Source of the DNA: Gordonia humi
GTDB lineage: Bacteria; Actinomycetota; Actinomycetes; Mycobacteriales; Mycobacteriaceae
Direction: 5' to 3'
NCBI RefSeq assembly: GCF_014197435.1
Contig: NZ_JACIFP010000001.1
Coordinates: 3,100,001-3,164,000, forward strand
DNA: 64,000 bases
Made by a program: the position numbers and the translations under genes. The notes under the pieces were generated by a model. It worked only from the letters and a program-made list of their open reading frames with translations, was not told the origin of the DNA and made no database searches. Positions within the stretch are counted from its first letter, which is position 1. Each line of letters opens with the position of its first letter. Positions 21,969 through 38,600 of this stretch are shown here, one piece after another.

Positions 21969-22715
21969 TTACTCGTCGACGACGGCGCCCGCGCAGTTCA
22001 CCAGGCCGCCGTCGATGACGAACTCGGAGCCGGTGGAGTACGAGGACTCGTCGGAAGCCAGGTACACGACCAGATTCGCGACCTCGTCGGCCTCGGCGAT
22101 CCGTCGGATGGGGGCGGCCAGGGTCGACAGGTCCATTCCTTCGGTCAGGGGAGTCTTGACCGTGCCGGGGTGGACCGAGTTGACCCGCACGTTCTTCCCG
22201 CCCAATTCGGCGGCGACGGACTTGGTCAGACCGCGCACCCCGAACTTCGACGCGGCGTATCCGTGCTGACCGGCGCTGCCGGTGAGTCCCGCGGTCGACG
22301 AGATGTTGACGATCGACGCCGGGGCCGACCGGACCAGTTCGTCGCGGGCCGCCTTGATGCCGAGGAACGAGCCGGTGAGGTTGATCCCCAGAATGGTGTT
22401 CCACTGGTCCACCGAGTAGTTCTCCAGGAATCCGAAGTTGACGATTCCGGCGTTATTCACCAGTACGTTGAGCTTTCCGAATGTGCCGACCGCGGTGGCG
22501 ACTCCATTGGCCCAGTCGTCCTCGCTGATGACGTCGAGGTGCACGAACGCCGCGCTCTCGCCGAGTTCCTTCGCGAGCGCTGCACCCTTCTCGTCGAGGA
22601 TGTCGCCGATCACGACCTGCCCGCCTTCGCGGACGACTGCGCGGGCGTGTGCGGCACCCATGCCCTGAGCTGCTCCGCTGACGAGAGCGACCTTGCCTTC
22701 GAGTCGGTTGACCAT
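21969..22715 (-). CDS. Short-chain dehydrogenase/reductase (3alpha/20beta-HSD-like)
   Basis: A 248-residue classical SDR. It has the Gly-rich motif SGAAQGMGAAHAR, HLDV, the NNAG motif, Ser in IVNISSTAGL, and the YAASK active site (HGYAASKFGV), ending with GSEFVIDGG. The acidic D in GDILDEKG favours NAD(H). Similar proteins are named 3alpha(20beta)-hydroxysteroid or cyclohexanol-type dehydrogenases. It is the last gene of the minus-strand operon SnoaL-FMO-SDR-SDR, the left half of the TetR regulon, and probably oxidises an alcohol of the degraded compound. Confidence 0.88.
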   Translation of the reverse strand: MVNRLEGKVALVSGAAQGMGAAHARAVVREGGQVVIGDILDEKGAALAKELGESAAFVHLDVISEDDWANGVATAVGTFGKLNVLVNNAGIVNFGFLENYSVDQWNTILGINLTGSFLGIKAARDELVRSAPASIVNISSTAGLTGSAGQHGYAASKFGVRGLTKSVAAELGGKNVRVNSVHPGTVKTPLTEGMDLSTLAAPIRRIAEADEVANLVVYLASDESSYSTGSEFVIDGGLVNCAGAVVDE

Positions 22716-22820
22716 GTGATTGTGCTCCTTACCTGGTGGCGGGGTAGCGGGGTGGGGCGGACCGCCCCGATGACGTGGTGATCGGGTGGGACGACCGGGG
22801 CCGTCCCACCCGAAGTCGTG

Positions 22821-23747
22821 TTACTGCTGAAACAGCGGTGGGATGAGGGCGAGCTCGTCGCCGGTACCCCTGACCGGATCGAGGTAGTTGTCGAGGCTGC
22901 GCACGGCATCGACGTTGTCCCTCAGATCCTCCGGCGTGTAATCCGGGTTGAAGTAGCCCTCGCCGACGATGAAGCCGACCCGTGAGACCTTGCCCGACGA
23001 CGTGCTGAAGACGTCGCCGTTCACCTGCGTGTCGCGGTGGGCGAGCCAGAGCACGGTCGGCGACACAGCCGACGGTGGTCCCATCGGCACCCGGCCCGAC
23101 TTGAGGTCGTCACGCCAGTCGTCGCTGGCGGACTCCTTGCCGCCGAAGAACGCATCGCGGTTCATCCGGGTGACCGCCATCGGTGCGATGGCGTTGACAT
23201 GGATGCCGGTGCCTGCGACCTCCTGGGACAGGGCCTTGGTGAATCCGGCGATTCCGAGTTTGGCGGCTCCGTAGTGGACGAGGGTCTCGTTGCCTGCGAA
23301 GCCGGCATTCGACGTGGTGTTGACGACGCGGCCGTAATCGTTCGCGAGGAACGTCGGCCACGCTGCGCGAGTCACGAAGTACGTGCCGTTGAGGGTCACC
23401 GACACCATGTCGCTCCACAGCTGAGGGGTGATGTCCTCGAGCTTGTGATAGTTGATGATGCCGGCGTTGTTGACCACCACGGTCAGCGTGCCGAACTCGT
23501 CGAGCGCATGCTTGACGAGTTCGGCGGCCCCCTCTTCGGTCGCGATGTTGTTGTCGTCCGCGACCGCGGTGCCTCCTGCGGCGACGATCTCGGCGACCGC
23601 CTCCTTTGCCACGTCCAGATCGATGTCGTTGAGCACGACGCGCGCGCCGCGCGCCGCGAACTGCTGCGCATGGGACCGGCCCAGTCCTCGTCCGGCTCCG
23701 GTGACGATGACGACGTCGTCGTCGAATCTCAGTTGTCCACTCGGCAT
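22821..23747 (-). CDS. Short-chain dehydrogenase/reductase, MFE-2-like
   Basis: A 308-residue SDR. N-terminal TGAGRGLGRSHAQQFAARGA, NDIDLD (NAD-type acid), NNAGII, Ser in NTTSNAGFAG, and YGAAK as the catalytic pair (VHYGAAKLGI). Length and the GRGLGRSHA motif resemble the 3-hydroxyacyl-CoA dehydrogenase domain of multifunctional enzyme type 2, with a ~50-residue C-terminal extension. It lies between the flavin monooxygenase and the other SDR genes in the same operon. It could act on a CoA ester or on a free alicyclic alcohol; the sequence does not decide. Confidence 0.85.
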   Translation of the reverse strand: MPSGQLRFDDDVVIVTGAGRGLGRSHAQQFAARGARVVLNDIDLDVAKEAVAEIVAAGGTAVADDNNIATEEGAAELVKHALDEFGTLTVVVNNAGIINYHKLEDITPQLWSDMVSVTLNGTYFVTRAAWPTFLANDYGRVVNTTSNAGFAGNETLVHYGAAKLGIAGFTKALSQEVAGTGIHVNAIAPMAVTRMNRDAFFGGKESASDDWRDDLKSGRVPMGPPSAVSPTVLWLAHRDTQVNGDVFSTSSGKVSRVGFIVGEGYFNPDYTPEDLRDNVDAVRSLDNYLDPVRGTGDELALIPPLFQQ

Positions 23748-23910: not shown

Positions 23911-25305
23911 CTACTCGGCGGCGGCCGTGTCGAGCGTCTTGACGGGTGCGCGGCTGTAGAAGTCGTCGTCGGCGGAGGTCGGCATCTCGATGCCGTAGCG
24001 CTTCTGCAACTCGTCGGTCATGTCGATGAGCTTGCCCATGTCGTACTGATTGATGTTGCGGTGCGTCTCGATCAGGTTGTCGTTCTTCAGGACCGGGTCG
24101 TAGTTCATGATCTCGTCCCGGAACTCCTGCCCTTCGCCCGTCATCAAGCGCTTGGCGTCCCAGACGGCGAGCTGGATCAGGCGGTCCCAGGTGAGGTAGG
24201 TGAGTCCGGGGAAGTGCACGGCACCGGCCGCGTACAGCCCTTCGACCTTGCTCGACAGGGTGCCGAGGTGGAACTTGGGTGCGCCCTGACTCCAGTCCAC
24301 GAGTTCGGGGTCGAGCCACGGAATGTCGAACCGGTACCCGGTCGCCAGGATGATGAGGTCGACCTCCGCGGAGGTACCGTCCACGAAGTGGACGGTCTTC
24401 CCGTCGACCGCCTGGATGTCCTGGTGCGCTTCGAGGTGTCCGTGCGCGATCTGGTACAGCACCTGATCATTCATGACCCAGTGCGTGGCGCCGGGTTCGT
24501 GGTCGGGCTTCGGCAGACCGAACGACGTGAGGTCGCCGACGCTCTCCAGGGTCAGCTGCATGGCCTCGGCCTCGGTCAACTCGCTGAGGGGAGTGACCGC
24601 CTGGGGAACTGTGCCGGTGCGGCTCAGCACCTGCAGGATCGGCTGACCGAAGATGAGCTTCGGGAAGAAGTGATACCCGCGGCGCACGGACAGGTGCGCC
24701 ATCGAGCCCGCGATCGCGGCGTCGACCACGATGTCAACTCCGCTGTTGCCCGCACCGACGACCAGGACTCGCTTGCCGACGACCTGATCGATGCGCTTGT
24801 ACTTGCTGCTGTGGATGATCTCGCCCGTGAAACCGTCGAGTCCCTTGATCTCGGGCTGGTGCGGGGTGCTCTGGAGACCGCAAGCCCACACGACGCCGCG
24901 GTAGAGGGTCTCGGCGCCGTCCGCGGTCTTGACGACCCAGCGCTGGCCGTCCGCGGTGTCGATCGGATGGGCCTCGGTCACCTCCTTGCCGGTGACGACG
25001 TATTCGTCCAGACCGTTGTCGCGAGCGAACGCGTGCATGAAGTCGCGGACCTCGTGCCAGGTGGGAAAGACCGGGATACCGTCCGGCATGGGGTATCCGA
25101 CCATGGCGCTGCTGACGCGATCGGAGATGAAGTTGCACGACTCGTACACCGGGCTGTGCGGGTTGTCGATGTTCCAGATTCCACCGACGGCGTCGTGCCG
25201 CTCCAAGATGTCGATGTCGAGTCCGGCCCGCCGGAAGGCGCGGGCGGCGATCAGGCCGTTCGGGCCTGCGCCGACGATCGCGAAGCGATTCTCTCGATTT
25301 TCCAT
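23911..25305 (-). CDS. Flavin-containing monooxygenase (class B, FMO type)
   Basis: A 464-residue flavoprotein with two dinucleotide motifs: VGAGPNGLIAARAF at residue ~11 (FAD) and VGAGNSGVDIV in the middle (NADPH). Between them is FTGEIIHSSKY, the FMO signature FxGxxxHxxxY, rather than the longer Baeyer-Villiger form ending in W-P/D. ATGYRFDIPWL is the usual C-terminal ATG motif. Class B enzymes insert oxygen next to ketones or oxidise N/S atoms. With two SDRs in the same operon, alcohol-ketone-oxygenated product steps are likely. Substrate unknown. Confidence 0.88.
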   Translation of the reverse strand: MENRENRFAIVGAGPNGLIAARAFRRAGLDIDILERHDAVGGIWNIDNPHSPVYESCNFISDRVSSAMVGYPMPDGIPVFPTWHEVRDFMHAFARDNGLDEYVVTGKEVTEAHPIDTADGQRWVVKTADGAETLYRGVVWACGLQSTPHQPEIKGLDGFTGEIIHSSKYKRIDQVVGKRVLVVGAGNSGVDIVVDAAIAGSMAHLSVRRGYHFFPKLIFGQPILQVLSRTGTVPQAVTPLSELTEAEAMQLTLESVGDLTSFGLPKPDHEPGATHWVMNDQVLYQIAHGHLEAHQDIQAVDGKTVHFVDGTSAEVDLIILATGYRFDIPWLDPELVDWSQGAPKFHLGTLSSKVEGLYAAGAVHFPGLTYLTWDRLIQLAVWDAKRLMTGEGQEFRDEIMNYDPVLKNDNLIETHRNINQYDMGKLIDMTDELQKRYGIEMPTSADDDFYSRAPVKTLDTAAAE

Positions 25306-25368: not shown

Positions 25369-25758
25369 TCAGCCGAAGTCGTAGTAGTCGACCAGACGGC
25401 CGTCGGCGAACGTCATGAAGGTGACCAGCTCAAGGGCGATGAGCTCCCCCTTGGTGCCGAAACCGGGGACGTCGGCCAATGGAGTGCCTCCCCAGGTGTG
25501 TCGCAGAACGACGGTGTCGTCGCTGACCTGCTTGATGAGCGTGCGCTGGGTGAATCCCTTGTCCGGCAGGATGGCGGTGAAATCCCGCATCATCTGGATG
25601 GCCGGGGCGGCTCCGGTGTTGTCCACACCGCGAGGGGTGTGCCGCATTCGGATGTTCTCGTCGAGCAGCCCGCCGAGGTAGTCGTAATCCTCGGTGTTGT
25701 ACGCGGTTATGTACGCGTCTGCGAGCTTCTCGAGGTCGGTCATGGGTTGGACGTCCAT
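25369..25758 (-). CDS. SnoaL/NTF2-like protein
   Basis: A 129-residue cone-shaped NTF2-fold protein: LADAYITAYNTEDYDYLGGLLDENIRMRH at the start, then FTAILPDKGFTQRTLIKQV and ELVTFMTFADGRLVDYYDFG at the end. Family members are small isomerases, cyclases or accessory proteins in steroid, polyketide and alicyclic metabolism. The ATG at 25758 has AGGAGA upstream; a second ATG at 25743 is possible. It is the first gene of the minus operon and an operator copy lies about 30 bp upstream. Confidence 0.75.
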   Translation of the reverse strand: MDVQPMTDLEKLADAYITAYNTEDYDYLGGLLDENIRMRHTPRGVDNTGAAPAIQMMRDFTAILPDKGFTQRTLIKQVSDDTVVLRHTWGGTPLADVPGFGTKGELIALELVTFMTFADGRLVDYYDFG

Positions 25759-25786: not shown

Positions 25787-25808
25787 TTCAACCTACCGAC
25801 CGTTTGAA
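25787..25808. promoter_or_regulatory. Regulon operator a, before the SnoaL-FMO-SDR operon
   Basis: TTCAAC at 25787, core CTACCGAC, then CGTTTGAA ending at 25808; arms TTCAA/TTGAA are perfect. It shares ACCnACCGTTTGA with sites at 26924, 31260 and (reverse) 36499. It precedes the start at 25758 by 29 bp. Confidence 0.55.
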
Positions 25809-26165: not shown

Positions 26166-26843
26166 GTGACATCAGAAGCGGCAGCCCAACCGGCGCGTCG
26201 GAAGAGGGGGCGTCCGCCCGCGGCGGGCAAGTCGAAGAAGGATCTCGACGGGGGCAAGTCTCGCGACCGCGAAGTCGTCGCCGCCGCGGTCCGACTCTTC
26301 TACAGCAAGGGCTACGCGGCGACCTCCATTCAGGACATCGCCGACGAGCTCGGTCTGCTCAAGGGGAGTGTCTACTACTACATCGACACCAAGGAGACCC
26401 TGCTGCGCAGGATCTTCGAGACCTCGCACGAACAAGTTCGGGAGATCGCCGAGAAGTACCAGGCGCCGGAAGACGGATCCGCGTTGGAGCGATTCCGCGG
26501 ATTCCTTCGCGAATACGCGCTGTGGTACCTGAGGAACATTCCGCGCGCGAGCCTGTTCGCGCGGGAATGGCGGCACGCCAGCGATGAACTCCGAGCGGTG
26601 ATGCTCGAGCAGCGCAAATACTACGACCACGCGCTCCGTGCGCTGATCCTCGCCGTGGGCGACGAGCGGAGGCTCGAGGTGGCCGACGACGCATCGATGA
26701 TCAGTAACTTCATCATGTCGGCGGTGTCGTCGCTCCCTGACTGGTTCCACCCCGACGGGAGCCGCAGTGCCGAAGACGTTGCGACGCACTACGTCGACTA
26801 CGCCACCCGAGTGTTGACGGGCGGCGACGTTCAACCGGGCTGA
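26166..26843 (+). CDS. TetR family regulator of the catabolic cluster
   Basis: A 225-residue protein. A basic, proline-rich N-terminus (PARRKRGRPPAAGKSKK) precedes the HTH: REVVAAAVRLFYSKGYAATSIQDIADELGLLKGSVYYYIDTK (in two parts), the family consensus. The C-terminal helical domain is of the type found in regulators of fatty-acid or steroid catabolism. The GTG at 26166 has GGAGAAG upstream. It sits between two divergent catabolic blocks, and five related inverted repeats precede its own gene and four other transcription units. It probably represses all until a CoA-ester intermediate binds. Confidence 0.9.
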   Translation: MTSEAAAQPARRKRGRPPAAGKSKKDLDGGKSRDREVVAAAVRLFYSKGYAATSIQDIADELGLLKGSVYYYIDTKETLLRRIFETSHEQVREIAEKYQAPEDGSALERFRGFLREYALWYLRNIPRASLFAREWRHASDELRAVMLEQRKYYDHALRALILAVGDERRLEVADDASMISNFIMSAVSSLPDWFHPDGSRSAEDVATHYVDYATRVLTGGDVQPG

Positions 26844-26940: not shown

Positions 26941-26962
26941 TGGAAATTAGGAGGGCGCTTTC

Positions 26963-27655
26963 GTGAGCATTGACAAGGTCGTCGCGTCGGTCGGAGAGGC
27001 GATCGCCGGGATCGGCGACGGTGCAACACTGATGGTGAGTGGTTTCGGGCCGCCCGGTCAACCGACGGAGTTGATCGACGGCGTCCTGGAGAGCGGGGTC
27101 GGTGATCTGACGATCATCAACAACAATGCCGGTGCCGGCGGGCGAGCGATCTCGGATCTGTTCGCCGCCAAACGAGTTCGAAAGGTCATCTGTTCCTTCC
27201 CGAAGGCCATCGGATCGACTGTGTTCGACGACCTCTATCGAGCCGGTGAGATCGAACTGGAACTCGTGCCGCAGGGCACCCTCGCCGAGCGCATCCGCGC
27301 GGGCGGAGCGGGTATAAAGGGCTTCTTCACGCCGACCGCGTACGAGACCGAACTCGCCGAGGGCAAGGAGACCCGAGTCATCGACGGGACCCCGTGCGTG
27401 CTCGAGATGCCACTGCACGCCGATTTCGCACTCGTGCGCGCCGACACCGGTGACCGCTACGGCAACCTGACCTACCGGAAGACCGGCCGCAACTACGGGC
27501 CGCTGATGGCGGCGGCCGCGGACGTGACGATCGCGGAGATCGCGCATCTGGCCGATCCCGACGACATGGACGCCGAGACGATCGTGACCCCGGGCATCTA
27601 CACCGACCGACTCTTCGTCGTCGACGGAGGCACCACCGAACAGGAGAAGTCATGA
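26963..27655 (+). CDS. 3-oxoacid CoA-transferase, subunit A
   Basis: A 230-residue alpha subunit of the type I CoA-transferase family. Typical are DGATLMVSGFGPPGQP, the NNAGAGGRAISDLFAAKRVRK segment, QGTLAERIRAGGAG and FFTPTAYETELAEGKE. It moves CoA from a donor such as succinyl-CoA to a carboxylic or 3-oxo acid. The start is GTG with AGGAGGG upstream. Its stop overlaps the B-subunit ATG (ATGA). In this cluster it probably activates the ring-opened acid. Confidence 0.9.
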   Translation: MSIDKVVASVGEAIAGIGDGATLMVSGFGPPGQPTELIDGVLESGVGDLTIINNNAGAGGRAISDLFAAKRVRKVICSFPKAIGSTVFDDLYRAGEIELELVPQGTLAERIRAGGAGIKGFFTPTAYETELAEGKETRVIDGTPCVLEMPLHADFALVRADTGDRYGNLTYRKTGRNYGPLMAAAADVTIAEIAHLADPDDMDAETIVTPGIYTDRLFVVDGGTTEQEKS

Positions 27656-28293
27656 GTCGTTGGACGCGCGACGAACTCGCCGCCCGCATCGCTCTCGACA
27701 TTCCCGACGGCGCGTACGTCAACCTCGGGATCGGCATGCCGACGATGGTGGCCGACCATGTGCCGGAGGGGCGCGAACTCGTGTTCCACACCGAGAACGG
27801 CATGCTGGGGATGGGGCCTGCCGCGGTGGGCGACCAGGTCGACGAGGACCTCATCAACGCGGGGAAGCTCTATGTCACGGAGTCGGTCGGCTGTTCGTAC
27901 TTCCACCACGGCGACTCGTTCTCGATGATTCGCGGCGGCCACATCGAATACTGCGTCATCGGCGCGTACCAGGTCGGAGCCCGCGGCGACCTGGCCAACT
28001 GGCGCACCACGTCCGCCGACGTCATTCCGGGTGTCGGCGGGGCGATGGACCTCGCGGTCGGGGCCCGCAACGTCTACGTGAGCATGGACCTCTTCACCAA
28101 GACCGGAGAGTGCAAGCTCGTCGCGGACTGCTCCTACCCGCTGACGGCGCGGCGATGCGTCGACCGCGTGTACACCGATCATGGAGTGTTCGAACCGAAC
28201 GGCACCGGATTCACCGTGATCGAGCTCAACGGCGCCGCGACCCTGGACGAGATCCAGGCGCGCTGCGTCGTTCCGCTCGTCTCGGCCGGCTGA
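27652..28293 (+). CDS. 3-oxoacid CoA-transferase, subunit B
   Basis: A 213-residue beta subunit. The catalytic glutamate is residue 48 in HTENGMLGMGP, and VNLGIGMPTMVADHVP and GGHIEYCVIGAYQV are family patterns. It begins with the ATG overlapping the stop of subunit A. The pair resembles PcaI/PcaJ and ScoA/ScoB; the natural acceptor cannot be read from the sequence. Confidence 0.92.
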   Translation: MSRWTRDELAARIALDIPDGAYVNLGIGMPTMVADHVPEGRELVFHTENGMLGMGPAAVGDQVDEDLINAGKLYVTESVGCSYFHHGDSFSMIRGGHIEYCVIGAYQVGARGDLANWRTTSADVIPGVGGAMDLAVGARNVYVSMDLFTKTGECKLVADCSYPLTARRCVDRVYTDHGVFEPNGTGFTVIELNGAATLDEIQARCVVPLVSAG

Positions 28294-28353: not shown

Positions 28354-30354
28354 ATGAGTCTTGTGACGATCGAGCGGCTCGACGACGTCGCGGTGGTCCG
28401 GATCGACCATCCTCCGATCAATGCAGGCGACGCCGAGCAGCGGGCGGCTCTGCTCGCGGCGATCACCACGGTCAAGGGCTGGTCGGGACTCCGCGGCGTC
28501 GTGGTGACCACTGCGGGACGACACTTCTACGCGGGCTCGGAACTGCGGGAGTTCGACGCCCCGCTCACCGACCCTCAGCTGCCCGCGGTGATCGCCGCGG
28601 TCGAAGGGTTGGACGTCCCCGTGGTCGCGGCACTGCGCGGTCTCGCGCTGGGCGGCGGACTCGAGTTCGCGCTCGGCTGCGACGGGCGGATCGCCACCCC
28701 GAATGTCGAGCTTGCGTTCCCCGAAGTCGGCTTCGGCATCGTCCCGGGCGCGGGTGGGACAGTGCGCTGCGCGCGCCTGATCGGTGTCGAGGCCGCATTC
28801 GACCTGGTGACGACGGGCCGACGCGTCGCAGCGACGGAGGCGTGCGATCTGGGACTCGTAGACGAGATCGTCGACGACGGCGAGTTGCTCACGCGAGCAC
28901 TCGCGGTGGCGGGTTCACTCGGTGCCAAGCGAAGACTCGTCGACGTCGACCCCGAGTCTGGCTTCGCCGACCGAGACGATCTCCTCGATCGGCTGCCGCG
29001 GCGGCATCGGCCGAACGTCCGCATCGCCGGTGAACTCGTCGTCGACGGCGTGTCGCTGCCCGCGGCGGAGGCGCTCGCCGCCGAGCGCGCACGATTCGAC
29101 GAGCTCCGGGTGTCCGACGAGTCGAACAGCCTGCGCTACCTTTTCTTCGCCCGCCAGGCCGCAGCCAGGGCCCTGCGGTCGCGGTCTGCGGCCGTGCCGG
29201 TTCGGCGCGTCGCTGTGGTCGGAGCCGGAACCATGGGGGCGGGTCTGGCGCAGCTGTTCGCGGACAACGGCTACGGGACAGTCGTCGTCGACGGATCTGC
29301 GGACGCGCTGTCCCGGATCGCCGGCGACACCATCCAGACCTCGACGTCGCTGGCCGTGTGCGCCGACTGTGATGTCGTGATCGAGGCGGTCTTCGAGGAC
29401 ATGCAGGTGAAACACGATCTCCTCCGACAGTTGGACGGCATCGTCCGCACCGACGCGATCATCGCCACCAACACGTCATATCTGGACATCGACGAGATGA
29501 GCGCCGCGCTGTCGGATCCCGGTCGCTTCGCCGGACTCCACTTCTTCAACCCTCCGCAGCGCAATCGACTCGTGGAGGTCATTCCGGGGTCGTCGACCAG
29601 CGGACAGACTCGTTCTACACTCGGAGCCCTGGCGACGGCGCTCGGCAAGGCCGCGGTACCCAGCGGCGTCGGCGACGGATTCATCGGCAACCGGGTCTAC
29701 TCCGACTACCGCACCCAGGCCGAGTTCCTCGTCGAGGACGGGGCGAGCCCCGCCGATGTCGATCGAGCCATGGAACGATTCGGCATGGCGATGGGGCCCT
29801 TCGCCGTCGCGGACATGTCGGGCCTCGACATCGCGTGGTCGCGGCGTAAGCGACTCGCGCCGACGCGCGACCCCCGACTCCGGTACGTCCCCGTCGCAGA
29901 CCGACTGTGCGAGACGGGCCGGTTGGGTAAGAAGACGGGCGCCGGGTGGTACGCCTACCCGGACGGCGCGCGGCGCGGAGCGGAGGACCCGGTCGTCGCC
30001 GAACTGATCGAGCGGTGCCGGGCGGAGGCCGGAGTGACCCCGCGGACGGTCGACTCCGCAGAGATCCAGCGGCGCGTTCTCGGCGCGATGGTGGCGGGTG
30101 CGACGGCCGTGTTCGACAGCGGTGTCGCGGAACGCGCCGGTGACATCGACGTCGCTCTGACCGAGGGCTTCGCCTTCCCGAAGCACCTGGGCGGTCCGGT
30201 CAGGGCGTTCTCTCGGCTGACCCGAGACGACCAGCTGTCGGCGCTGGCCGGAGTCCACTCGTCGGACCCGGTCGCCTATGCGTCGCTGGCCGATGCGTCG
30301 GTCGGCGCGATGCCGGCACCCGTCGAACGTCTACTGAAAGGACTTGTGAAATGA
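28354..30354 (+). CDS. Fused enoyl-CoA hydratase/3-hydroxyacyl-CoA dehydrogenase
   Basis: A 666-residue bifunctional beta-oxidation protein. Residues ~1-190 are a crotonase domain (ALRGLALGGGLEFALGCD oxyanion-hole region, then FPEVGFGIVPGAGGT with the catalytic Glu). From ~residue 285 comes the NAD-binding VAVVGAGTMGAGLAQLFADNG, then NTSYLDIDEM, HFFNPPQRNRLVEVIPG with the catalytic His, and GDGFIGNRV; the C-terminal helical domain follows. The layout is that of the FadB/FadJ and peroxisomal type. It is the third gene of the operon, ending in an ATGA overlap with the cyclase gene. Confidence 0.93.
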   Translation: MSLVTIERLDDVAVVRIDHPPINAGDAEQRAALLAAITTVKGWSGLRGVVVTTAGRHFYAGSELREFDAPLTDPQLPAVIAAVEGLDVPVVAALRGLALGGGLEFALGCDGRIATPNVELAFPEVGFGIVPGAGGTVRCARLIGVEAAFDLVTTGRRVAATEACDLGLVDEIVDDGELLTRALAVAGSLGAKRRLVDVDPESGFADRDDLLDRLPRRHRPNVRIAGELVVDGVSLPAAEALAAERARFDELRVSDESNSLRYLFFARQAAARALRSRSAAVPVRRVAVVGAGTMGAGLAQLFADNGYGTVVVDGSADALSRIAGDTIQTSTSLAVCADCDVVIEAVFEDMQVKHDLLRQLDGIVRTDAIIATNTSYLDIDEMSAALSDPGRFAGLHFFNPPQRNRLVEVIPGSSTSGQTRSTLGALATALGKAAVPSGVGDGFIGNRVYSDYRTQAEFLVEDGASPADVDRAMERFGMAMGPFAVADMSGLDIAWSRRKRLAPTRDPRLRYVPVADRLCETGRLGKKTGAGWYAYPDGARRGAEDPVVAELIERCRAEAGVTPRTVDSAEIQRRVLGAMVAGATAVFDSGVAERAGDIDVALTEGFAFPKHLGGPVRAFSRLTRDDQLSALAGVHSSDPVAYASLADASVGAMPAPVERLLKGLVK

Positions 30355-31223: not shown

Positions 31224-31265
31224 GCATTTGCGTGTGATCGCCTACACATCTAAACTTATTTCCAC

Positions 31266-31279: not shown

Positions 31280-31292
31280 AAAGTGAGTTGTA

Positions 31293-31805
31293 ATGGACGT
31301 CTCGCCCGCCGACATCAAACTGATCCTCTCGACGCTGCAGGATTCGGAGTTCGACCAGGCTGAAGTGGTGATCGGCGATGTGCGCATTGCGGTCGCCCGC
31401 AACGGAATCGCGCTCAATGCGGCCACCGCGGGCGCGCCGGCGACCCCCGCAGCCGTCGACCCCGTCGTGAACACGACCCCCGCGGCCCCGGTGGCTCCGG
31501 CGACGCCGGAACCGGTCGCTGCGGCGCAGGCACCCTCACCCGCACCCACGGTCTCCGAGTCGGCGCACACCGTCACGTCACCGAGCGTTGGCGTCTTCTG
31601 GCATGCGTCGTCCCCGGGGGCGGCGCCGTTCGTCGAAGTCGGTCAGGAGGTCTCCGCGGGCGACACCATCGGCATCGTCGAGGTGATGAAGTTGATGAAC
31701 AACGTGGCCGCGGACGTCGACGGTGTGGTGACCTCGATCCACGTCGAGAACGCCGGATCCGTCGAATTCGGCACCCCGCTGGTCACCATCGAGCCGAGGG
31801 CCTGA
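31293..31805 (+). CDS. Biotin carboxyl carrier protein
   Basis: A 170-residue BCCP. Residues 1-38 are an AccB-like N-terminal helix/strand (DIKLILSTLQDSEFDQAEVVIGDVRI), residues ~40-90 an Ala/Pro-rich linker, and the C-terminal ~75 residues the biotinyl domain with EVMKLMN, the biotinylated Lys being residue 133. It carries the carboxyl group between the biotin carboxylase and the carboxyltransferase encoded next. The ribosome-binding site is weak (GTGAGTTGTA). Confidence 0.92.
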   Translation: MDVSPADIKLILSTLQDSEFDQAEVVIGDVRIAVARNGIALNAATAGAPATPAAVDPVVNTTPAAPVAPATPEPVAAAQAPSPAPTVSESAHTVTSPSVGVFWHASSPGAAPFVEVGQEVSAGDTIGIVEVMKLMNNVAADVDGVVTSIHVENAGSVEFGTPLVTIEPRA

Positions 31806-31808: not shown

Positions 31809-33236
31809 GTGACCGAGAAGACCATCCGCCGTGTCCTCGTCGCCAACCGCGGCGAGATCGCGGTTCGCATCATTCGGGCGTGCTTCGACGAAGGCATCGA
31901 GAGCGTCCTCGCATGCTCGGCGGCCGACACCGAGACGCTGGCCGCGCGGCTGGCCGACCAGGTGATCGTCATCGGCCCCGCCGCCGCCACCGAGAGCTAC
32001 CTCGACATCCCCCGCGTCGTGCAGGCGGCGATCTCGGCCGAATGCGACGCACTGCATCCCGGCTACGGATTCCTGTCGGAGCGCCCCGAACTGGTCGACG
32101 CGTGCGAAGCGAACGACATCGTCTACATCGGGCCGCCCGCCGAGATCATGCGGCAGTCCGGATCCAAACTCGGTGCGCGAGCAGTGGCCGACGAAGTCGG
32201 GATCCCCACCGGCGCGGGCTCCGGCGGACTGTCGAGCGCCGAGGACGCGGTCGCCGCGGCGCGCACACTCGGATTCCCCCTCTTGCTGAAGGCGTCCGCG
32301 GGCGGCGGTGGTCGAGGCATGACGATCCTGCGTTCCGAGGATCAGGTGACGGCGGGCTACCTCCGCTCGAGCGTCGAAGCGGAGCGCGCGTTCGGCGACG
32401 GCACCGTGTATCTCGAGCCCTACGTCGAGCGCGCCCGCCACGTCGAGGTGCAGATCCTCGCCGACTCGCACGGAAACATCTGCCACCTCGGCGAGCGTGA
32501 CTGCTCGACGCAGCGCCGCTATCAGAAGATCATCGAGGAGGCTCCGGCGGTTGGCCTGCCCGCACGACTCGTCGACGAGATCCGGACGGCGGCGGTCGAC
32601 CTCTGCAAAGGTCTCGGCTACGTGGGCGCAGGCACTGTCGAGTTCCTCGTCGACGCGGACAGGAACCGGTTCGTATTCCTTGAGGTCAACGCCCGCGTAC
32701 AGGTGGAGCACCCGATCTCCGAGGCGGTCACCGGCATCGACATCGTCCGCGAGCAGCTGCGGATCGCCCGCGGGCTGCCGCTGTCCTTCACCCAGGCCGA
32801 CGTCGCCATCGACGGACATGCCATCGAGTGCCGGCTCAATGCCGAAGACAGCAGGCGAGACTTCGCTCCGACACCGGGCACGATCACTCAGTGGACGGTG
32901 CCGAGCGGTGAGGGCGTACGCATCGACACCTTCGCCCACGCCGGCGCCGTGATCTCCCCGTGGTACGACTCGCTGATCGCCAAGGTGATCGTGCACGCGC
33001 CCACCCGGGAAGCGGCGATCGACCGGATGCGCAAGGTGCTGAGCAAGATTCACGCCGAGGGCGTCTCGACCACCGCCGACATCCACCAGGCGATCCTGGC
33101 GCATCCGGACTTCGCGGAGGCGCCGGTGACGACGAAGTGGCTCGAAGACGTGTTCCTCCCGGCATGGGAGACCGATTCCGAGTCACATCCCACCGGGACG
33201 TCGCGTAGACCTCATCGAGGAGGAGAGAACCAATGA
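31809..33236 (+). CDS. Biotin carboxylase subunit
   Basis: A 475-residue ATP-grasp enzyme that carboxylates biotin with ATP and bicarbonate. Motifs: VLVANRGEIAVRIIRA, HPGYGFLSE, KASAGGGGRGM (ATP loop), ERDCSTQRRYQKIIEEAP, EFLVDADRNRFVFLEVNARVQVEHP (in parts) with the Glu/Asn metal ligands, and GHAIECRLNAED. It is of AccC length, without BCCP fusion. The GTG at 31809 follows the bccp stop by three bases and its end overlaps the next ATG (ATGA). Confidence 0.94.
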   Translation: MTEKTIRRVLVANRGEIAVRIIRACFDEGIESVLACSAADTETLAARLADQVIVIGPAAATESYLDIPRVVQAAISAECDALHPGYGFLSERPELVDACEANDIVYIGPPAEIMRQSGSKLGARAVADEVGIPTGAGSGGLSSAEDAVAAARTLGFPLLLKASAGGGGRGMTILRSEDQVTAGYLRSSVEAERAFGDGTVYLEPYVERARHVEVQILADSHGNICHLGERDCSTQRRYQKIIEEAPAVGLPARLVDEIRTAAVDLCKGLGYVGAGTVEFLVDADRNRFVFLEVNARVQVEHPISEAVTGIDIVREQLRIARGLPLSFTQADVAIDGHAIECRLNAEDSRRDFAPTPGTITQWTVPSGEGVRIDTFAHAGAVISPWYDSLIAKVIVHAPTREAAIDRMRKVLSKIHAEGVSTTADIHQAILAHPDFAEAPVTTKWLEDVFLPAWETDSESHPTGTSRRPHRGGENQ

Positions 33237-34699
33237 ACATCGATTTCGTCGAACAGAGTCTGCGGGACGGTCAGCAGAGTCTGTGGGGAATGCGACTGCG
33301 TGCCTACGAGGCCGCCGGCGCACTGCCATATCTCACGAACGCGGGTTACCGCACCATCGACCTCACCGGCGCGGGCATGTTCACCGTTCTCCTGCGTGAG
33401 TACGGCGACGACCCGTGGGCCACGCTCGACTTCCTCGTCGCCGGTCTGCGGGGGAACGAGCTCCGTTCCGGGCTGCGGACCCTGAGTTGCGTCGGCTTCG
33501 CGCCCACCCCCCAGGTGATCATGGACCTGTGGGTTCAGACCCTGGTCAAGCACGGCGCGACCAGCTTCTGGCTGTACGACTGCCTCTACGACATGGACCT
33601 GATGAAGCACATGGTGCAGGTCGTCAATGATGCAGGCGGACAGCCGGTTCCGGCGATCATGTACGGGCTCACCGACGTTCACGACGATGCGTACTTCGCC
33701 GACCGGGCAGCACAGATGGCGTCGTGGAACGGCGTCGAGTCGGTCTACCTCGAGGACGCCGCCGGTGTGCTCAAGCCCGAGCGCGCGCGCACCCTGCTAC
33801 CCGCGGTCCGTGAGGCCACGGGGACCACTCCGCTCGAACTGCACTGCCACAACACGACGAACCTCGCCCAGCACAACTACATCGTCGGTGTCGAGAGCGG
33901 GTTCTCCCGACTGCACACCGCGTCGCGACCCATGGCCAACGGTCCGTCGCTGCCCTCGACCGAGGCGATGGTCGCGATCATCGAACACATGGGTCACACC
34001 CACGGGCTCGACACGTCGACCTTCGGTCCCGTCGCGGAGCACTTCGAGCAGGTGGCCCGTGACGCTGGGCGCGCGACCGGTGTGCCCGCCGAGTACGACC
34101 CGCGCATGTACGACCACCAGCTGCCGGGCGGGATGACCGGCACCCTGATCAATCAGCTGGAGCGACACGGGATGGGGCACCGTTTCCCGGAGGTCCTCGA
34201 AGCGATCCCGCAGGTCCGCGTCGACCTCGGGTCGCCGATCATGGCCACCCCGTTCTCGCAGTTCGTCGGCGTGCAGACCGTCCTCAACATCGTCACCGGC
34301 GATCCGTACTCGATGGTGTCGGACGAGGTGATCCACTACGTCCTCGGGCATTACGGCCCGGTGCCCGCTCCGGTGGCGCCGAACGTCCTCGACAAGATCC
34401 TGTCCAGTCCCCGCGCGGAGCAGTTGAAGAACTGGGAACGACCGGATCCCACCCTCGCGGAGATCCGCTCCAAGTTCGCGCCCGGCATCTCGGACGAGGA
34501 ACTGCTGATCCGTTTCATGATGTCCGACGAGGAGGTGGACGCGATGCTGGCGAAGGGCCCGCTGCGGGTCGATCGGCGTCGCAGCACCAACAACATCGTC
34601 GAATCGGTGATCGACCTGCTCGACGATCCCGGAACGAGCAAGTCGTTCTCCGTCTCCACGCCGCATTTCAGCGTCAGTACCTCGAGGAGTGCACGATGA
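33233..34699 (+). CDS. Pyruvate carboxylase/oxaloacetate decarboxylase-type carboxyltransferase subunit, altered metal site
   Basis: A 488-residue protein with a DRE-TIM barrel and the helical C-terminal part of the PC/OadA/transcarboxylase-5S family. RDGQQSLWGMR (residues 11-21) replaces RDAHQSLxATR; LELHCHNTTN gives His204 and His206; YDHQLPGGM (293-301) is the family motif. The metal-binding carboxylated Lys of the family (KDMAG) is Glu174 here (YLEDAAG). Asp12 and both His are kept. With the preceding BCCP and biotin carboxylase it should form a biotin-dependent carboxylase of a keto or enolisable substrate; which one is unknown. ATGA overlap on both sides. Confidence 0.85.
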   Translation: MNIDFVEQSLRDGQQSLWGMRLRAYEAAGALPYLTNAGYRTIDLTGAGMFTVLLREYGDDPWATLDFLVAGLRGNELRSGLRTLSCVGFAPTPQVIMDLWVQTLVKHGATSFWLYDCLYDMDLMKHMVQVVNDAGGQPVPAIMYGLTDVHDDAYFADRAAQMASWNGVESVYLEDAAGVLKPERARTLLPAVREATGTTPLELHCHNTTNLAQHNYIVGVESGFSRLHTASRPMANGPSLPSTEAMVAIIEHMGHTHGLDTSTFGPVAEHFEQVARDAGRATGVPAEYDPRMYDHQLPGGMTGTLINQLERHGMGHRFPEVLEAIPQVRVDLGSPIMATPFSQFVGVQTVLNIVTGDPYSMVSDEVIHYVLGHYGPVPAPVAPNVLDKILSSPRAEQLKNWERPDPTLAEIRSKFAPGISDEELLIRFMMSDEEVDAMLAKGPLRVDRRRSTNNIVESVIDLLDDPGTSKSFSVSTPHFSVSTSRSAR

Positions 34700-35541
34700 G
34701 CGACGAGCTGATCCAGGTCGAGATCGACGGTCACGTCACCTGGCTGACCCTCAACCGTCCCGACCGACTGAACGCCCTCAGTGACGACCTGCTCGAGCAA
34801 CTCGGTGACGTCCTCGACGCCACCGTGAACACCGACGCTCGCGTCGTCGTGATCCGCGGCGCCGGTCGTGCCTTCTGCGCGGGCTACGACGTCGCTCCCG
34901 ATTCGGCTGAAGTCGGTTACGCCGCCGAACGCACACCCGTCGAGGACCGCGACCGGCTTCTCGGCAACATCGAGCTGTTCACCCGCATCTGGCGACACCC
35001 GCAGCCCGTCATCGCCGCGGTGCACGGTCACTGCGTCGCCGGAGGTGCGCAGTTGGCGTCGATGTGCGACGTCACGATCGTCGCCGACGACGCGAACATC
35101 ATGACCTCGCCCGCCCTGCCGCTGGGCGGCGGCTACCTGTCGCCGCTGTGGGTACATCGCGTCGGCGGTCAACGCGCGAAGCTGATGTCGATGGATGCGG
35201 GGCGACGCATCACCGGCGCGAAGGCCGCCGAGTGGGGCTGGGCCGCGGAAGCCGTGCCCGCGGACGAACTACACGACTTCGTCCGTCGTACCGCGCATTC
35301 GATCGCACGTACTCCCGGTCCGCTGCTGCGCTTGAAGAAGGAGGCGGTCAATCGCGCCGTCGAACTGGAGGGGCTGCTGACCTACGCCCGCACGGGTGCC
35401 GAGACCGACGCCCTCCTGCATCTGACACCGGAGGTCCGACACGTTCAGTCGCGGATCAAGGAGGTCGGCCTCAAGGCGGCGATCGTCGAGTTCAACGCCG
35501 ATTTCGACGCCGAGTTCGGCAGCGTCCGGGGTGCGCGATGA
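34696..35541 (+). CDS. Enoyl-CoA hydratase/isomerase family protein
   Basis: A 281-residue crotonase. LNRPDRLNALSDDLLEQL and RAFCAGYDVAP form the first oxyanion loop, and VHGHCVAGGAQLASMCDVTI the second. At the usual catalytic Glu positions the sequence reads SPALPLGGGYLSPLW, without the standard PE, so it may be an isomerase, hydrolase or C-C lyase of the fold rather than a hydratase. It is coupled by ATGA overlaps to both neighbours in the carboxylase operon. Confidence 0.85.
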   Translation: MSDELIQVEIDGHVTWLTLNRPDRLNALSDDLLEQLGDVLDATVNTDARVVVIRGAGRAFCAGYDVAPDSAEVGYAAERTPVEDRDRLLGNIELFTRIWRHPQPVIAAVHGHCVAGGAQLASMCDVTIVADDANIMTSPALPLGGGYLSPLWVHRVGGQRAKLMSMDAGRRITGAKAAEWGWAAEAVPADELHDFVRRTAHSIARTPGPLLRLKKEAVNRAVELEGLLTYARTGAETDALLHLTPEVRHVQSRIKEVGLKAAIVEFNADFDAEFGSVRGAR

Positions 35542-36458
35542 CCGCGGGGACCATGCCGTCCTACGACGAGCTGCCAGAACTGGCCGAACTCGGGGTGCGG
35601 CATTCGTGGGGTCTGCTTCCGCACGAGGCCGGCACCCTGGCGTTCATCGACGCCGACCAGGTCCGACGTGCCGCCGCGACCGTCACCGAAGGCCGCGCGA
35701 TCGCGCTGAGCGAGCCGATCGCGACCTTCGATCAGCCGCTCTTCGAGCGCGACGCACTGACGCACTCCGTCGTCGAAGTCGGCCGCAACGAGCTCGAAGA
35801 CGTCTTCGATCGGTTCAATCCCCAGGCGTACTCGCAGATCGACGGACTCGCGCACGTCCGCGCACGCGAGTTCGGCTTCTATGGCGGCCTCGTCGACGTC
35901 GACGAGGCCCGCGAACGTCTCGGCATGCACCACTGGGCGCAGCGCTCCATCTGCGGACGAGGAGTGCTCCTCGACGTGCACCGGTCCCGACAGGCCCGCG
36001 GCGAGGTCGACGATCCGACGTCCGGATCCGCGATTCTTCCCGACGAGCTCGACGCCGTCGCCCGGGAACAGGGCGTGGCGCTCGAGCGCGGCGACATCGT
36101 CCTCGTGCGCACCGGGTGGCTCGAAGCCTTCCGGGACCTGCCCGCCGGCTGTTCGGTCACCACATGGAACGGTCTGCACGCGGGCGAGGCGACCGCGGAG
36201 TTCCTGTGGAACTCCGGCGTCGCACTGCTCGGTGCGGACAACCCCGCCGTCGAAGACGCCCCCGGTTCTCGAGACGCGGGGTCGCTGCACAGAAGGCTCC
36301 TTCCGGGGCTCGGTCTGTCCTTGCTGGAACTCCTGCGCCTCGACGAGCTCGCGCAGGCGTGTGCCGATGCGCGGCGATGGGAATTCCTGTTCACCGCTGC
36401 ACCGCTGCCGGTCCACGGTGCGGTCAGCTCGCCCGCCAACGCGGTCGCGATCCTCTGA
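35538..36458 (+). CDS. Cyclase-family hydrolase 2 (divergent)
   Basis: A 306-residue protein of the cyclase family in its second branch. The metal motif is reduced to SQIDGLAH (residues 99-106), where the first branch has GTHxDxPxH; this SQxDGLxH form is seen in a recognisable subgroup of unknown function. Other features are GRGVLLDVHRSRQ and ERGDIVLVRTGW. The ATG at 35538 overlaps the hydratase stop. It is last in the carboxylase operon. Two different cyclases in one regulon suggest two hydrolytic C-C or C-N cleavages. Confidence 0.8.
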   Translation: MTAGTMPSYDELPELAELGVRHSWGLLPHEAGTLAFIDADQVRRAAATVTEGRAIALSEPIATFDQPLFERDALTHSVVEVGRNELEDVFDRFNPQAYSQIDGLAHVRAREFGFYGGLVDVDEARERLGMHHWAQRSICGRGVLLDVHRSRQARGEVDDPTSGSAILPDELDAVAREQGVALERGDIVLVRTGWLEAFRDLPAGCSVTTWNGLHAGEATAEFLWNSGVALLGADNPAVEDAPGSRDAGSLHRRLLPGLGLSLLELLRLDELAQACADARRWEFLFTAAPLPVHGAVSSPANAVAIL

Positions 36459-36512: not shown

Positions 36513-36522
36513 GTGGAAATTC

Positions 36523-37662
36523 ATGACTGTTCAGCCGCTTGACACTGAGCGTGACATCGAGAAGTTCGCCGCGGAAGCCCAAGAATGGCTCGAGACCGCG
36601 GTACCGGAACGATGGAAGAACGAACGTGGCTCGATGACGAGTCACGAGATGGACGAGCTCCGTCGGGAATGGGACTTCATCCTCTGGGAGGGCGGCTATT
36701 CGGGCCTGTCCATCCCGAAGGAGTACGGCGGCCAAGGACTCAGCCTGTCCGAGGAGATCATCTTCCACGTCCTCGCGGGCAGCGCGCAGGCGCCGGACGG
36801 CCTCGCCCGAGTCGGCAAGTCGCTCGTCACGCCGATGCTGATCAAGGGCGGGAGCGAGCGCCAGCGAGCCACCTACATTCCGTCGATCATGAACGGCACC
36901 GACGTGTGGTGCCAGGGCTTCTCCGAGCCCGAAGCCGGCTCCGACATGGCGAACATTCAGACTCGTGCCCGGCGGGTCGACGGCGGCTACCTGCTGACCG
37001 GAACCAAGACATGGACGTCGTTCGCGCAGCACGCCCGACGCTGCTTCGTCCTCGCACAGACTCAGCCCGAAGCGGGGCGGTATCGCAACCTGTCGATGCT
37101 GCTGGTCGACATGCGGGATCCGGGCGTATCCATCAGCGACATCCGCCAGATCTCCGGTGCCGTGCACTTCGCGGAAACGCGCTTCGACAACGTGTTCGTC
37201 GCCGACAGCGACCGGGTGGGCGACGACGGCGACGGCTGGGGCGTCGCGATGCGTGTGCTCGGCGACGAGCGCGGCGGAATCGAGACCGCGGCTCGCTACG
37301 TGGAGATTCGTTCCGACGTCGACGCACTCCTCGCCGTCCTGGGCGGCAACCCTCGCTATGCCGATCGGTTGCGGGACCTGGACATCCGCACTGAGCTGGT
37401 GCGCTGGCAGCTCGCGAAGATCGCCGACCTCGAGGCAGCGGGCGACGAGGCCCGCCTGGCCCGAGCGGGGGCGGTTCTGAAGCTCATGTGGAGCGAGCTG
37501 TGGCAGGACGTCACCCGTCTGGGTGTCGACCACGCCCCTGCGGCGGATCACCGGCACTGGACGTACCAGTACCTCGAGTCGCGCGCCGTCACCATCTACG
37601 GCGGTTCCAGCGAGATCCAACGCAACATTCTGTCCGAACGAGCGTTGGGTCTTCCCCGATGA
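36523..37662 (+). CDS. Acyl-CoA dehydrogenase, first subunit
   Basis: A 379-residue FAD-dependent acyl-CoA dehydrogenase. Signatures: WCQGFSEPEAGSDMANIQTRA (shown with the FAD/substrate loop SEPEAGSD), LTGTKTWTSFAQHA, VHFAETRFDNVFV, and the C-terminal YGGSSEIQRNILSERALGLPR. The N-terminal part is complete. It overlaps the next dehydrogenase gene (ATGA). Adjacent, unequal acyl-CoA dehydrogenases in actinobacteria often form alpha2beta2 enzymes that act on ring-bearing acyl-CoAs (as in steroid catabolism), so the pair is likely one heteromeric enzyme. Confidence 0.9.
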   Translation: MTVQPLDTERDIEKFAAEAQEWLETAVPERWKNERGSMTSHEMDELRREWDFILWEGGYSGLSIPKEYGGQGLSLSEEIIFHVLAGSAQAPDGLARVGKSLVTPMLIKGGSERQRATYIPSIMNGTDVWCQGFSEPEAGSDMANIQTRARRVDGGYLLTGTKTWTSFAQHARRCFVLAQTQPEAGRYRNLSMLLVDMRDPGVSISDIRQISGAVHFAETRFDNVFVADSDRVGDDGDGWGVAMRVLGDERGGIETAARYVEIRSDVDALLAVLGGNPRYADRLRDLDIRTELVRWQLAKIADLEAAGDEARLARAGAVLKLMWSELWQDVTRLGVDHAPAADHRHWTYQYLESRAVTIYGGSSEIQRNILSERALGLPR

Positions 37663-38600
37663 GCACCGAACAGCAGGAGACGACTGTGCGATACGCGATG
37701 ACCACGATGCCGACTGACTTCGGTCAGACCGGAGCCGAGGGAATCCGAGACCTGGTGAGGAGGGCGACCGCACAGGCGCCCATCGCGACCTACGCCGAGG
37801 ATGCCGACTCGCTCATCTCCTGGGCCGCGATCGCCGGCGCGGGATGGGACTGCGCGGGCATCGTCGAAGACGGCGAGGGAGCGACGACGAGAGACCTGAT
37901 CGAGATCGCGCGGGAGTGGGGCTACGGATGCATTCCGCAACCGCTGCTGCCGACGATGCTCGCCAAGCGGCTGTCTCCCGCCGCACGCGCGTCGAACGGG
38001 CCGGTGACCTTCGCCCTGGCCATGGACGGCGACAGCCTCATCCCGTTCGGTCAACTCGCCGATATCGCGCTGGTGACCGCGCTGGGCGGGGACGGCGGAG
38101 CACTGGTCCCGGTCGGGGAGGGCGACGACGACGGCCTCGATCTCATCGGTCGTGGCACGCGGACCACACAACCGGTGACCACGGCGATGACCGTCGACGC
38201 CGCGCGCGAGGTCGCGCTGGTTCTGGCCGCGGAGTCGCTCGGCGGTGCGGAACGCCTGCTGGCGGACTCGATCGAGTTCACCAAGCAGCGGACCCAGTTC
38301 AATCGGCCCGTCGGATCCTTCCAGTCGGTCAAGCACAAACTCGCGAATGCCGCGGTCGCTGTCGAATCCGCCGAGACGGCGCTGATCTGGGGATCGCAAC
38401 GCCGCGAACACGCCTTCCGGTCGGCGGTGTTCGCGGTGGACCGCTGCATCGATGCGGCGGAGATCGCCGTGCAGATGCACGGCGGGCTGGGCTTCACCTG
38501 GGAGGCCGGTCTGCACTACCCGTTCCGCAAGTTCCTCAGCACGCACCGTGTGACCGACGAACTCCAACGGCGGTACGACGGAGGCGGGGACGACGCCTGA
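37659..38600 (+). CDS. Acyl-CoA dehydrogenase, second (short) subunit
   Basis: A 313-residue, divergent acyl-CoA dehydrogenase. The middle beta domain is reduced; the C-terminal helices have FTKQRTQFNRPVGSFQSVKH, the FAD-binding Arg motif, and AVQMHGGLGFTWEAGLHYPFRK. The SEPEAGSD loop of the first subunit is not present. Short partners of this kind pair with a longer one. The ATG at 37659 overlaps the stop of the first subunit. It is the last gene of the catabolic regulon. Confidence 0.88.
   Translation: MSTEQQETTVRYAMTTMPTDFGQTGAEGIRDLVRRATAQAPIATYAEDADSLISWAAIAGAGWDCAGIVEDGEGATTRDLIEIAREWGYGCIPQPLLPTMLAKRLSPAARASNGPVTFALAMDGDSLIPFGQLADIALVTALGGDGGALVPVGEGDDDGLDLIGRGTRTTQPVTTAMTVDAAREVALVLAAESLGGAERLLADSIEFTKQRTQFNRPVGSFQSVKHKLANAAVAVESAETALIWGSQRREHAFRSAVFAVDRCIDAAEIAVQMHGGLGFTWEAGLHYPFRKFLSTHRVTDELQRRYDGGGDDA

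Follow-up and report, generated by a model that had tools for sequence, protein, structure and literature searches.

A predicted TetR-controlled catabolic regulon with an HpeCBA-like carboxylase in Gordonia humi

The 64-kb window analyzed here, from the genome of Gordonia humi, an actinobacterium that shares its family with Rhodococcus (contig NZ_JACIFP010000001.1, positions 3,100,001–3,164,000; coordinates below refer to this stretch) contains a cluster of 16 genes surrounding a single gene for a TetR-family regulator. The cluster is likely to be a catabolic regulon repressed by the TetR protein encoded in its middle. With a probability that we put at roughly 0.6, this regulon degrades a 1,8-cineole-type monoterpenoid via carboxylation of a ketone intermediate, followed by coenzyme A (CoA) activation and β-oxidation. 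A carboxylase resembling the ketone carboxylase HpeCBA is predicted to be put to a new use within it. The evidence comes from (i) an operator motif shared by five transcription units, (ii) the presence of counterparts of nearly all of the genes near the cineole hydroxylase gene P450cin in related bacteria, and (iii) the composition and signature residues of the carboxylase.

Genetic organization of the cluster

The following genes were identified:

21969..22715, minus strand: SDR1, short-chain dehydrogenase (SDR), predicted hydroxycineole-type dehydrogenase (PF13561/PF00106; counterpart of the SDR beside P450cin)
22821..23747, minus strand: SDR2, second short-chain dehydrogenase (PF00106)
23911..25305, minus strand: flavin monooxygenase (FMO), predicted Baeyer-Villiger monooxygenase (PF00743; FxGxxxHxxx[YF][KR] motif)
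25369..25758, minus strand: SnoaL-like small protein, first gene of the FMO operon (PF07366/PF12680)
26166..26843, plus strand: TetR-family regulator, predicted repressor of the regulon (PF00440 and PF17932)
26963..27655, plus strand: 3-oxoacid CoA-transferase subunit A (TIGR02429, 309 bits, cut-off 128.5)
27652..28293, plus strand: 3-oxoacid CoA-transferase subunit B (TIGR02428, 266 bits, cut-off 243.6; ENG motif in TENGM, residues 47–51)
28354..30354, plus strand: enoyl-CoA hydratase/3-hydroxyacyl-CoA dehydrogenase fusion, FadB-like (PF00378, PF02737, PF00725)
30351..31223, plus strand: Cyc1, PF04199 hydrolase (HGGTHVDAPAH motif)
31293..31805, plus strand: biotin carboxyl carrier protein (BCCP) of the predicted ketone carboxylase (PF00364, TIGR00531; MKL biotin-site motif)
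31809..33236, plus strand: biotin carboxylase subunit (PF02786, PF00289, PF02785)
33233..34699, plus strand: carboxyltransferase subunit, PYC_OADA type (PF02436, PF00682; W and E replace R and K of the genome's own pyruvate carboxylase)
34696..35541, plus strand: crotonase-family enzyme, ECH2 (PF00378)
35538..36458, plus strand: Cyc2, second PF04199 hydrolase (QIDGLAH motif)
36523..37662, plus strand: large acyl-CoA dehydrogenase, ACAD_L (PF02770/PF02771/PF00441; top NCBIfam model pimC, TIGR03204, 193 of 624 bits, far below the cut-off)
37659..38600, plus strand: small acyl-CoA dehydrogenase (PF00441; top NCBIfam model IpdE2, NF050027, 89 of 450 bits, below the cut-off)

Transcription unit boundaries were deduced from gene order and strand. 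A preliminary description of this DNA listed an oxygenase, alcohol dehydrogenases, two ring-opening-type hydrolases, a CoA-transferase, a carboxylase and β-oxidation enzymes. Its inventory had to be extended: the CoA-transferase operon further holds the hydratase/dehydrogenase fusion and one PF04199 hydrolase, while the carboxylase operon consists of BCCP, biotin carboxylase, the PYC_OADA-type carboxyltransferase, the crotonase and the second PF04199 hydrolase.

A common predicted operator motif and its probable regulator

The same description placed five related inverted repeats before five units around the tetR gene. All of them were found, within 1–5 bases of the places given, and the likeness claimed for the fourth and fifth sites (d and e) is seen in the sequences. 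The predicted operators, with their 16-bp cores read on one strand, are as follows:

25792..25807, no strand: operator a, core CCTACCGACCGTTTGA, ends 33 bases before the SnoaL start codon
26068..26083, no strand: operator b, core CCAAACGTTAGTTTGA, ends 82 bases before the tetR start codon
26925..26940, no strand: operator c, core TCTACCGACCGGTTGA, ends 22 bases before the start codon of CoA-transferase subunit A
31265..31280, no strand: operator d, core CCAAACGAACGTTTGA, ends 12 bases before the BCCP start codon
36498..36513, no strand: operator e, core CCAAATAATCGTTTGA, ends 9 bases before the start codon of the large acyl-CoA dehydrogenase

The palindromy of the cores is imperfect (4/8, 5/8, 6/8, 6/8 and 5/8 positions pair in a–e, respectively). 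A leave-one-out analysis was used, in which a symmetric weight matrix built from four sites scored the fifth against all other positions of the window. The held-out site ranked first in 5/5 trials (15.0–22.0 bits, compared to 10.6–11.7 bits for the best other position). The idea that one motif precedes all five of the units listed above is borne out by this ranking and by conservation of the motif across genera. A looser cut-off was less discriminating: at 13.5 bits the window has 5 sites, while 30 shuffles gave 1.0 on average and at most 4.

The window matrix was also applied to seven other cluster loci (219,652 bases), all carrying the carboxyltransferase gene. This revealed 25 sites of at least 17 bits, compared to a mean of 0.17 and a maximum of 1 in 30 dinucleotide shuffles. 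The 25 sites cannot be counted as independent events, as L009, L010 and G658 are closely related loci. At 13.5 bits, 34 sites were detected (mean of 3.1 and maximum of 7 in shuffles). Sites lie before orthologous units in L001, L002, L003, L009, L010 and G658, with one site in L004, and the genera or groups concerned are Rhodococcus, Georgenia, Leucobacter and an unclassified actinobacterium. The sites of R. yunnanensis (L001) precede tetR, the CoA-transferase A gene, the BCCP gene, the acyl-CoA dehydrogenase pair, a Baeyer-Villiger gene and a zinc-type dehydrogenase gene. Those of Georgenia (L002) are located between tetR and the fusion gene, and before the genes for BCCP, a transporter and an ETF protein; those of Leucobacter (L003) between tetR and Cyc1, and before the BCCP gene, the fusion gene and an ETF gene. 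The L004 site precedes the acyl-CoA dehydrogenase gene.

The whole genome was scanned with degenerate patterns drawn from the sites, so that matches within the cluster itself are no surprise. One such pattern, which fits sites a, c and d, had no other perfect match in the 5.09-Mb genome, and with one mismatch it occurred at six places outside the cluster (C1:243246, 3299499, 4605505, 4764669, C2:43609 and C3:53207). Up to two mismatches gave 268 matches per strand, compared to 348 for a reversed control pattern; such loose matches are regarded as chance, because the control gives more of them. Site e, two mismatches from the pattern, was not among about the first 100 two-mismatch matches listed.

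A protein bound so close to start codons would be likely to block transcription. The DNA-binding domain of the local TetR shares 26–44 of 47 residues with those of five other operator-bearing clusters, compared to 13/47 and 8/45 for control TetR proteins, and it is kept while the rest of the protein diverges (30/47 vs 31/133 in L010). Operator and DNA-binding domain are conserved jointly in other genera. The genome has 125 TetR_N matches, and binding of the local TetR to the sites is itself a sequence-based prediction, so another member of the family might bind the operators; however, we consider this very improbable, as each of the five other clusters compared has a TetR gene with the conserved domain, and tetR itself is preceded by one of the sites. 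The operator/TetR pair is a possible monoterpenoid sensor.

Counterparts of the cluster genes near P450cin

In R. pyridinivorans P23 (pA) and R. opacus G13 (pRho-G13), a counterpart of SDR1 (90–91% identity) is divergent from genes for a P450, an FAD reductase and a flavodoxin. The R. pyridinivorans P450 scored 871.7 bits against P450cin (199 bits for the next best family) and the flavodoxin 264.7 bits against cindoxin. On account of these scores the set is assigned to the 1,8-cineole 6-hydroxylase system. The host of P450cin, R. globerulus, is the Citrobacter braakii of older papers.

Counterparts of the window genes near P450cin number 16/16 in genome G658, 16/16 in R. opacus G13 and 15/16 in R. 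pyridinivorans P23, in which SDR2 was not detected; in all three loci, which are relatives of one another, they lie within about 35 kb of P450cin. The SDR adjoining P450cin is identical to SDR1 at 90% (L009), 91% (L010), 89% (G658) and 81% (G617) of positions, and the FMO counterparts in the three loci at 82–83%, while those of SDR2 reach 60% in L010 and 59% in G658. The remaining G658 identities are 86 and 65% for two carboxyltransferases, 81 and 57% for two ACAD_L counterparts and 32–71% for the other genes (FMO, 83%), and this locus has six sites of at least 17 bits.

Among 376 family genomes, in a survey that scored only the 4–7 best candidates of each genome, SDR1 (E≤1e-95) was found in three: the window genome and the only two with P450cin (E≤1e-120), where the two genes are directly adjacent. 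Of 72,556 plasmid records, two hold FMO (E≤1e-100), and these are also the two that hold P450cin (E≤1e-120). FMO at E≤1e-120 is present in three family genomes, i.e. the window genome, G658 and, at 45% identity, G600.

The FMO carries the FxGxxxHxxx[YF][KR] motif as FTGEIIHSSKYK at residue 159, together with two Rossmann motifs. Some enzymes with this FMO-type motif perform Baeyer-Villiger chemistry.

Three further observations may be added. (i) The gene at L010:13532–16807, in a P450cin locus, encodes a large protein that has a serine/threonine kinase domain and ends in a LuxR-type DNA-binding region; an operator-like site (15.4 bits) lies just upstream. (ii) The SnoaL counterpart preceding the R. 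opacus G13 FMO gene (L028:12117–12504) matches as two pieces (62 and 67%), and may be decayed or mis-sequenced. (iii) Rhodococcus sp. Eu-32 (P0130, P0241) has the FMO closest to that of the window genome among the matches listed (92%), and an SDR1 relative (79%).

The carboxylase

The closest proven type of enzyme is HpeCBA, a ketone carboxylase of phosphorylated acetophenones composed of BCCP, carboxyltransferase and biotin carboxylase subunits, for which CoA activation of the β-keto acid is proposed as the next step (PMC9618137). By its predicted subunits, the three-subunit biotin carboxylase of the window resembles this enzyme.

Alignment of the carboxyltransferases revealed that the window protein and six clade relatives have [FV]W[LI]YD and EDAAG, as opposed to FRIFD and KDMAG in the genome's own pyruvate carboxylase. 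In pyruvate carboxylase the arginine binds the carboxylate group of pyruvate, and the lysine, in carbamylated form, is the ligand of the metal. The change of R to W and K to E would therefore fit a ketone substrate lacking a carboxylate at this position. W and E also occur in three more distant homologues (L007, L008 and L011), and a Novosphingobium homologue has W and Y at the two positions.

The carboxyltransferase (E≤1e-150) was found in 3/401 family genomes (the window genome, G658 and G581, the last of these belonging to another genus of the family). It was found in 8 of the plasmid records, two of which are R. pyridinivorans P23 pA and R. opacus G13 pRho-G13 (86% identity). The P450cin loci of L010 and G658 (L020–L022) contain two carboxyltransferases (86 and 64–65% identical to that of the window) and one detected biotin carboxylase, an arrangement suggesting that two ketone substrates may share one carboxylase subunit. 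A bioY biotin transporter gene follows the CoA-transferase-to-thiolase genes of R. pyridinivorans P23 (L029:24062–24679), which fits a biotin-dependent pathway.

Distribution of the core genes

A recurrent core was recognized, comprising TetR, CoA-transferase, the fusion protein, both PF04199 hydrolases, the carboxylase, the crotonase and the dehydrogenase pair; the SnoaL-FMO-SDR-SDR unit is outside it. The core has gaps: the CoA-transferase was not seen in the Georgenia stretch, the large dehydrogenase in the Leucobacter stretch, or Cyc1 and fusion counterparts in the 12-kb L004. A thiolase gene is additionally present in L001, L002, L003 and the P450cin loci.

Among solved structures, the two PF04199 hydrolases have distant relatives only (an uncharacterized protein, kynurenine formamidase and isatin hydrolase). 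The phloroglucinol ring-opening enzyme is presumably another member of this family.

Proposed pathway

As far as the accessible part of a review describes it, Rhodococcus sp. C1 converts 1,8-cineole to 6-hydroxycineole and 6-oxocineole, and ring cleavage gives an unstable lactone and then 5,5-dimethyl-4-(3-oxobutyl)dihydrofuran-2-one; the pathway given there stops at this keto-lactone, formed spontaneously after ring cleavage (PMC4097962). This compound carries a methyl ketone on one of its arms, and the other carboxyl end has a branch beside it.

Combining these data, the following sequence of steps may be envisaged: (i) TetR would occupy the operators near the start codons and leave them once a pathway compound binds it; (ii) SDR1 would oxidize a hydroxycineole-type alcohol to the ketone; (iii) FMO would insert oxygen into the cyclic ketone, taking 6-oxocineole to the lactone and so to 5,5-dimethyl-4-(3-oxobutyl)dihydrofuran-2-one; (iv) BCCP, biotin carboxylase and carboxyltransferase would add CO2 next to the ketone, yielding a 3-oxo acid; (v) the 3-oxoacid CoA-transferase (PcaIJ-type) would activate this acid; (vi) a thiolase, with the acyl-CoA dehydrogenase pair, the crotonase and the FadB-like fusion, would shorten the chain from that end by thiolysis and then one round of β-oxidation; and (vii) the PF04199 hydrolases would probably open the lactone or cleave a C–C bond. 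Shortening from the ketone end would avoid the branch that blocks ordinary β-oxidation from the carboxyl end.

On a broader and more tentative view, to which we give somewhat less than even odds, the cluster supplies the lower half of bacterial 1,8-cineole degradation that has been missing, with a biotin-dependent carboxylase that would convert a monoterpenoid methyl ketone, otherwise a dead end, into a 3-oxo acid fit for CoA activation. Its core would be a portable actinobacterial module, joined through one operator and TetR to oxygenase front ends that can be exchanged (P450cin, luciferase-type, FMO-type or type I Baeyer-Villiger enzymes).

Discussion

Several findings weigh against the cineole assignment. 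P450cin is absent from the window genome, which has 13 P450 matches (best 34%; nearest solved relative a CYP125-type enzyme), so that either the entry step or the actual substrate may be a different one. Most of the core is held by R. yunnanensis, Georgenia and Leucobacter, and P450cin, FMO and SDR1 counterparts were not found in the stretches read; in R. yunnanensis a type I Baeyer-Villiger enzyme takes their place. As these three genera have most of the core without cineole-type front ends, the core is not cineole-specific. In genome G617, an operator-like site (16.4 bits) separates P450cin from SDR1 (81%); the 39 kb read contain no carboxylase gene, and G617 is not among the three genomes with the carboxyltransferase at E≤1e-150. 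The 45% FMO relative is in G600, a genome without a carboxyltransferase match. The P450cin loci also hold a luciferase-type monooxygenase, a flavin reductase and the second carboxyltransferase, and because of the second monooxygenase and carboxyltransferase the assignment of enzymes to steps is uncertain. In the window cluster, no gene for a thiolase was detected. Lastly, the residue signature of the carboxyltransferase is not uniform: in the P. putida homologue the K is retained, and V stands in place of the R.

Two candidates for a local entry system were considered and discarded. The best P450 of the genome was set aside as a cineole entry enzyme since its closest solved relative is of the CYP125 type. 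Cindoxin is absent from the window genome at high identity, and the best flavodoxin (49% cindoxin-like, C1:1519660) is not beside a P450cin-like gene: the P450 about 12 kb away shares only 28% identity with P450cin, and sites there score 12.1 bits at most.

The absence of P450cin also bears on the substrate. It is possible, though in our judgement unlikely, that the same regulon and carboxylase core serve another alicyclic ketone or monoterpenoid (e.g. a p-menthane ketone), with the core acting as a general ketone-carboxylation module with an exchangeable oxygenase end. The varied neighbours of the core speak for this: a type I Baeyer-Villiger enzyme, SDRs and a zinc-type dehydrogenase in R. 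yunnanensis, ABC-transporter and ETF genes in Georgenia, and ETF genes in Leucobacter. However, SDR1 (81–91%) and FMO are closer to the P450cin-locus enzymes than most core genes are, and in the family sample SDR1 at such similarity was found, outside the window genome, only beside P450cin. The preliminary description had suggested "an alicyclic ketone or terpenoid"; the terpenoid part is supported by the gene counterparts near P450cin, and the suggestion is now narrowed to a ketone-carboxylase route.

The presence of a 3-oxoacid CoA-transferase and a crotonase, with pimC as the top model for the large acyl-CoA dehydrogenase, would also be compatible with carboxylation of a cyclic ketone to a 2-oxocycloalkane carboxylate, the CoA ester of which would be opened by a BadI-like crotonase to a pimeloyl-type dicarboxylyl-CoA. 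This is improbable: a Baeyer-Villiger-type FMO would be superfluous in such a regulon, the PimC and PimD models stay below their cut-offs (193 of 624 bits for the large and 44 of 653 bits for the small dehydrogenase), and no BadI model is among the 25 best of 70 matches of the crotonase.

Steroid fragments had been named among the growth substrates to try. A KstR2-like regulon for steroid ring fragments would agree with the TetR control, the CoA-transferase-fold pair, the IpdE2-like small dehydrogenase and the closest solved relatives of SDR1 (the SDR Rv2002 and hydroxysteroid dehydrogenases), but we consider it scarcely credible. The ENG motif is kept in CoA-transferase B, whereas the steroid hydrolase IpdAB lacks the catalytic glutamate, and the accessible part of the same source names no biotin carboxylase among the KstR2-regulon genes (PMC5380842). 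The IpdE2 model is far below its cut-off, as is that of KstR (20 of 280 bits). Acetone-only carboxylation is ranked low.

The cluster had further been taken for a possibly undescribed degradation route. That view is too wide for the upper half of bacterial cineole degradation, which is in print (P450cin and, as cited in the accessible part of a review, the Rhodococcus TMP1 cin operon); the lower half alone could be undescribed. For the steps after the cineole keto-lactone, no title or abstract was found in literature searches, which miss most subscription journals. The P450 chemistry that first oxidizes 1,8-cineole is well known; the 16-gene set with its shared operator makes the remainder testable gene by gene. 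If the proposed pathway is true, aerobic ketone carboxylation would be extended beyond phosphorylated aromatic ketones.

Other features of the window

Two letter-identical copies of a 1298-bp element, probably an insertion sequence, lie in opposite orientation at 45989–47286 and 57509–58806; the element has two reading frames, of 113 and 317 aa. A second pair of similar two-frame elements (3284–4464 and 56168–57345) has identical 318-base frames, while the longer frames match partly in an ungapped comparison.

Treating the SnoaL and FMO genes as a split type II FMO, although appealing, was rejected: none of the 120 closest listed FMO relatives bears a SnoaL Pfam domain, and the SnoaL protein gave no match to JsFMO (8ACS) in a PDB sequence search, in which two high-scoring BurrH rows (70 bits) were disregarded, as no stretch of them passes alone.

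Comparison with known systems

The KstR2/HIP regulon of mycolic-acid actinobacteria, as far as the accessible part of its description goes, likewise has a TetR-type repressor with several targets, SDRs, a crotonase and acyl-CoA dehydrogenases. Unlike it, the window has the kept CoA-transferase motif, a biotin carboxylase and PF04199 hydrolases. The KstR2 operator, we assume, differs from that of the window.

The window FMO shares the FxGxxxHxxx[YF][KR] motif with type II flavin-containing monooxygenases with Baeyer-Villiger activity (JsFMO and RjFMO-E/F/G). The long subgroup of these has a fused N-terminal SnoaL-like domain, whereas SnoaL and FMO are two genes in the window, and the solved chain nearest to the window FMO is a 432-residue flavin monooxygenase.

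The P450cin (CYP176A1)/cindoxin system of Rhodococcus is linked to the window by SDR1, FMO and the other genes with counterparts in P450cin loci, and differs from it in having P450cin and cindoxin themselves.

With respect to the phospho-acetophenone carboxylase HpeCBA/XccBCA of the acetovanillone pathway, the Hpe pathway includes a PEP-type kinase and a phosphatase, neither of which is among the 16 genes of the window, and a R. oxybenzonivorans relative that adjoins PEP-utilizing enzyme genes is only 47% identical. The Hpe pathway uses an AMP-forming synthetase, in place of which the window has a CoA-transferase. The two systems are alike in subunit composition, both having a separate BCCP, biotin carboxylase and carboxyltransferase.

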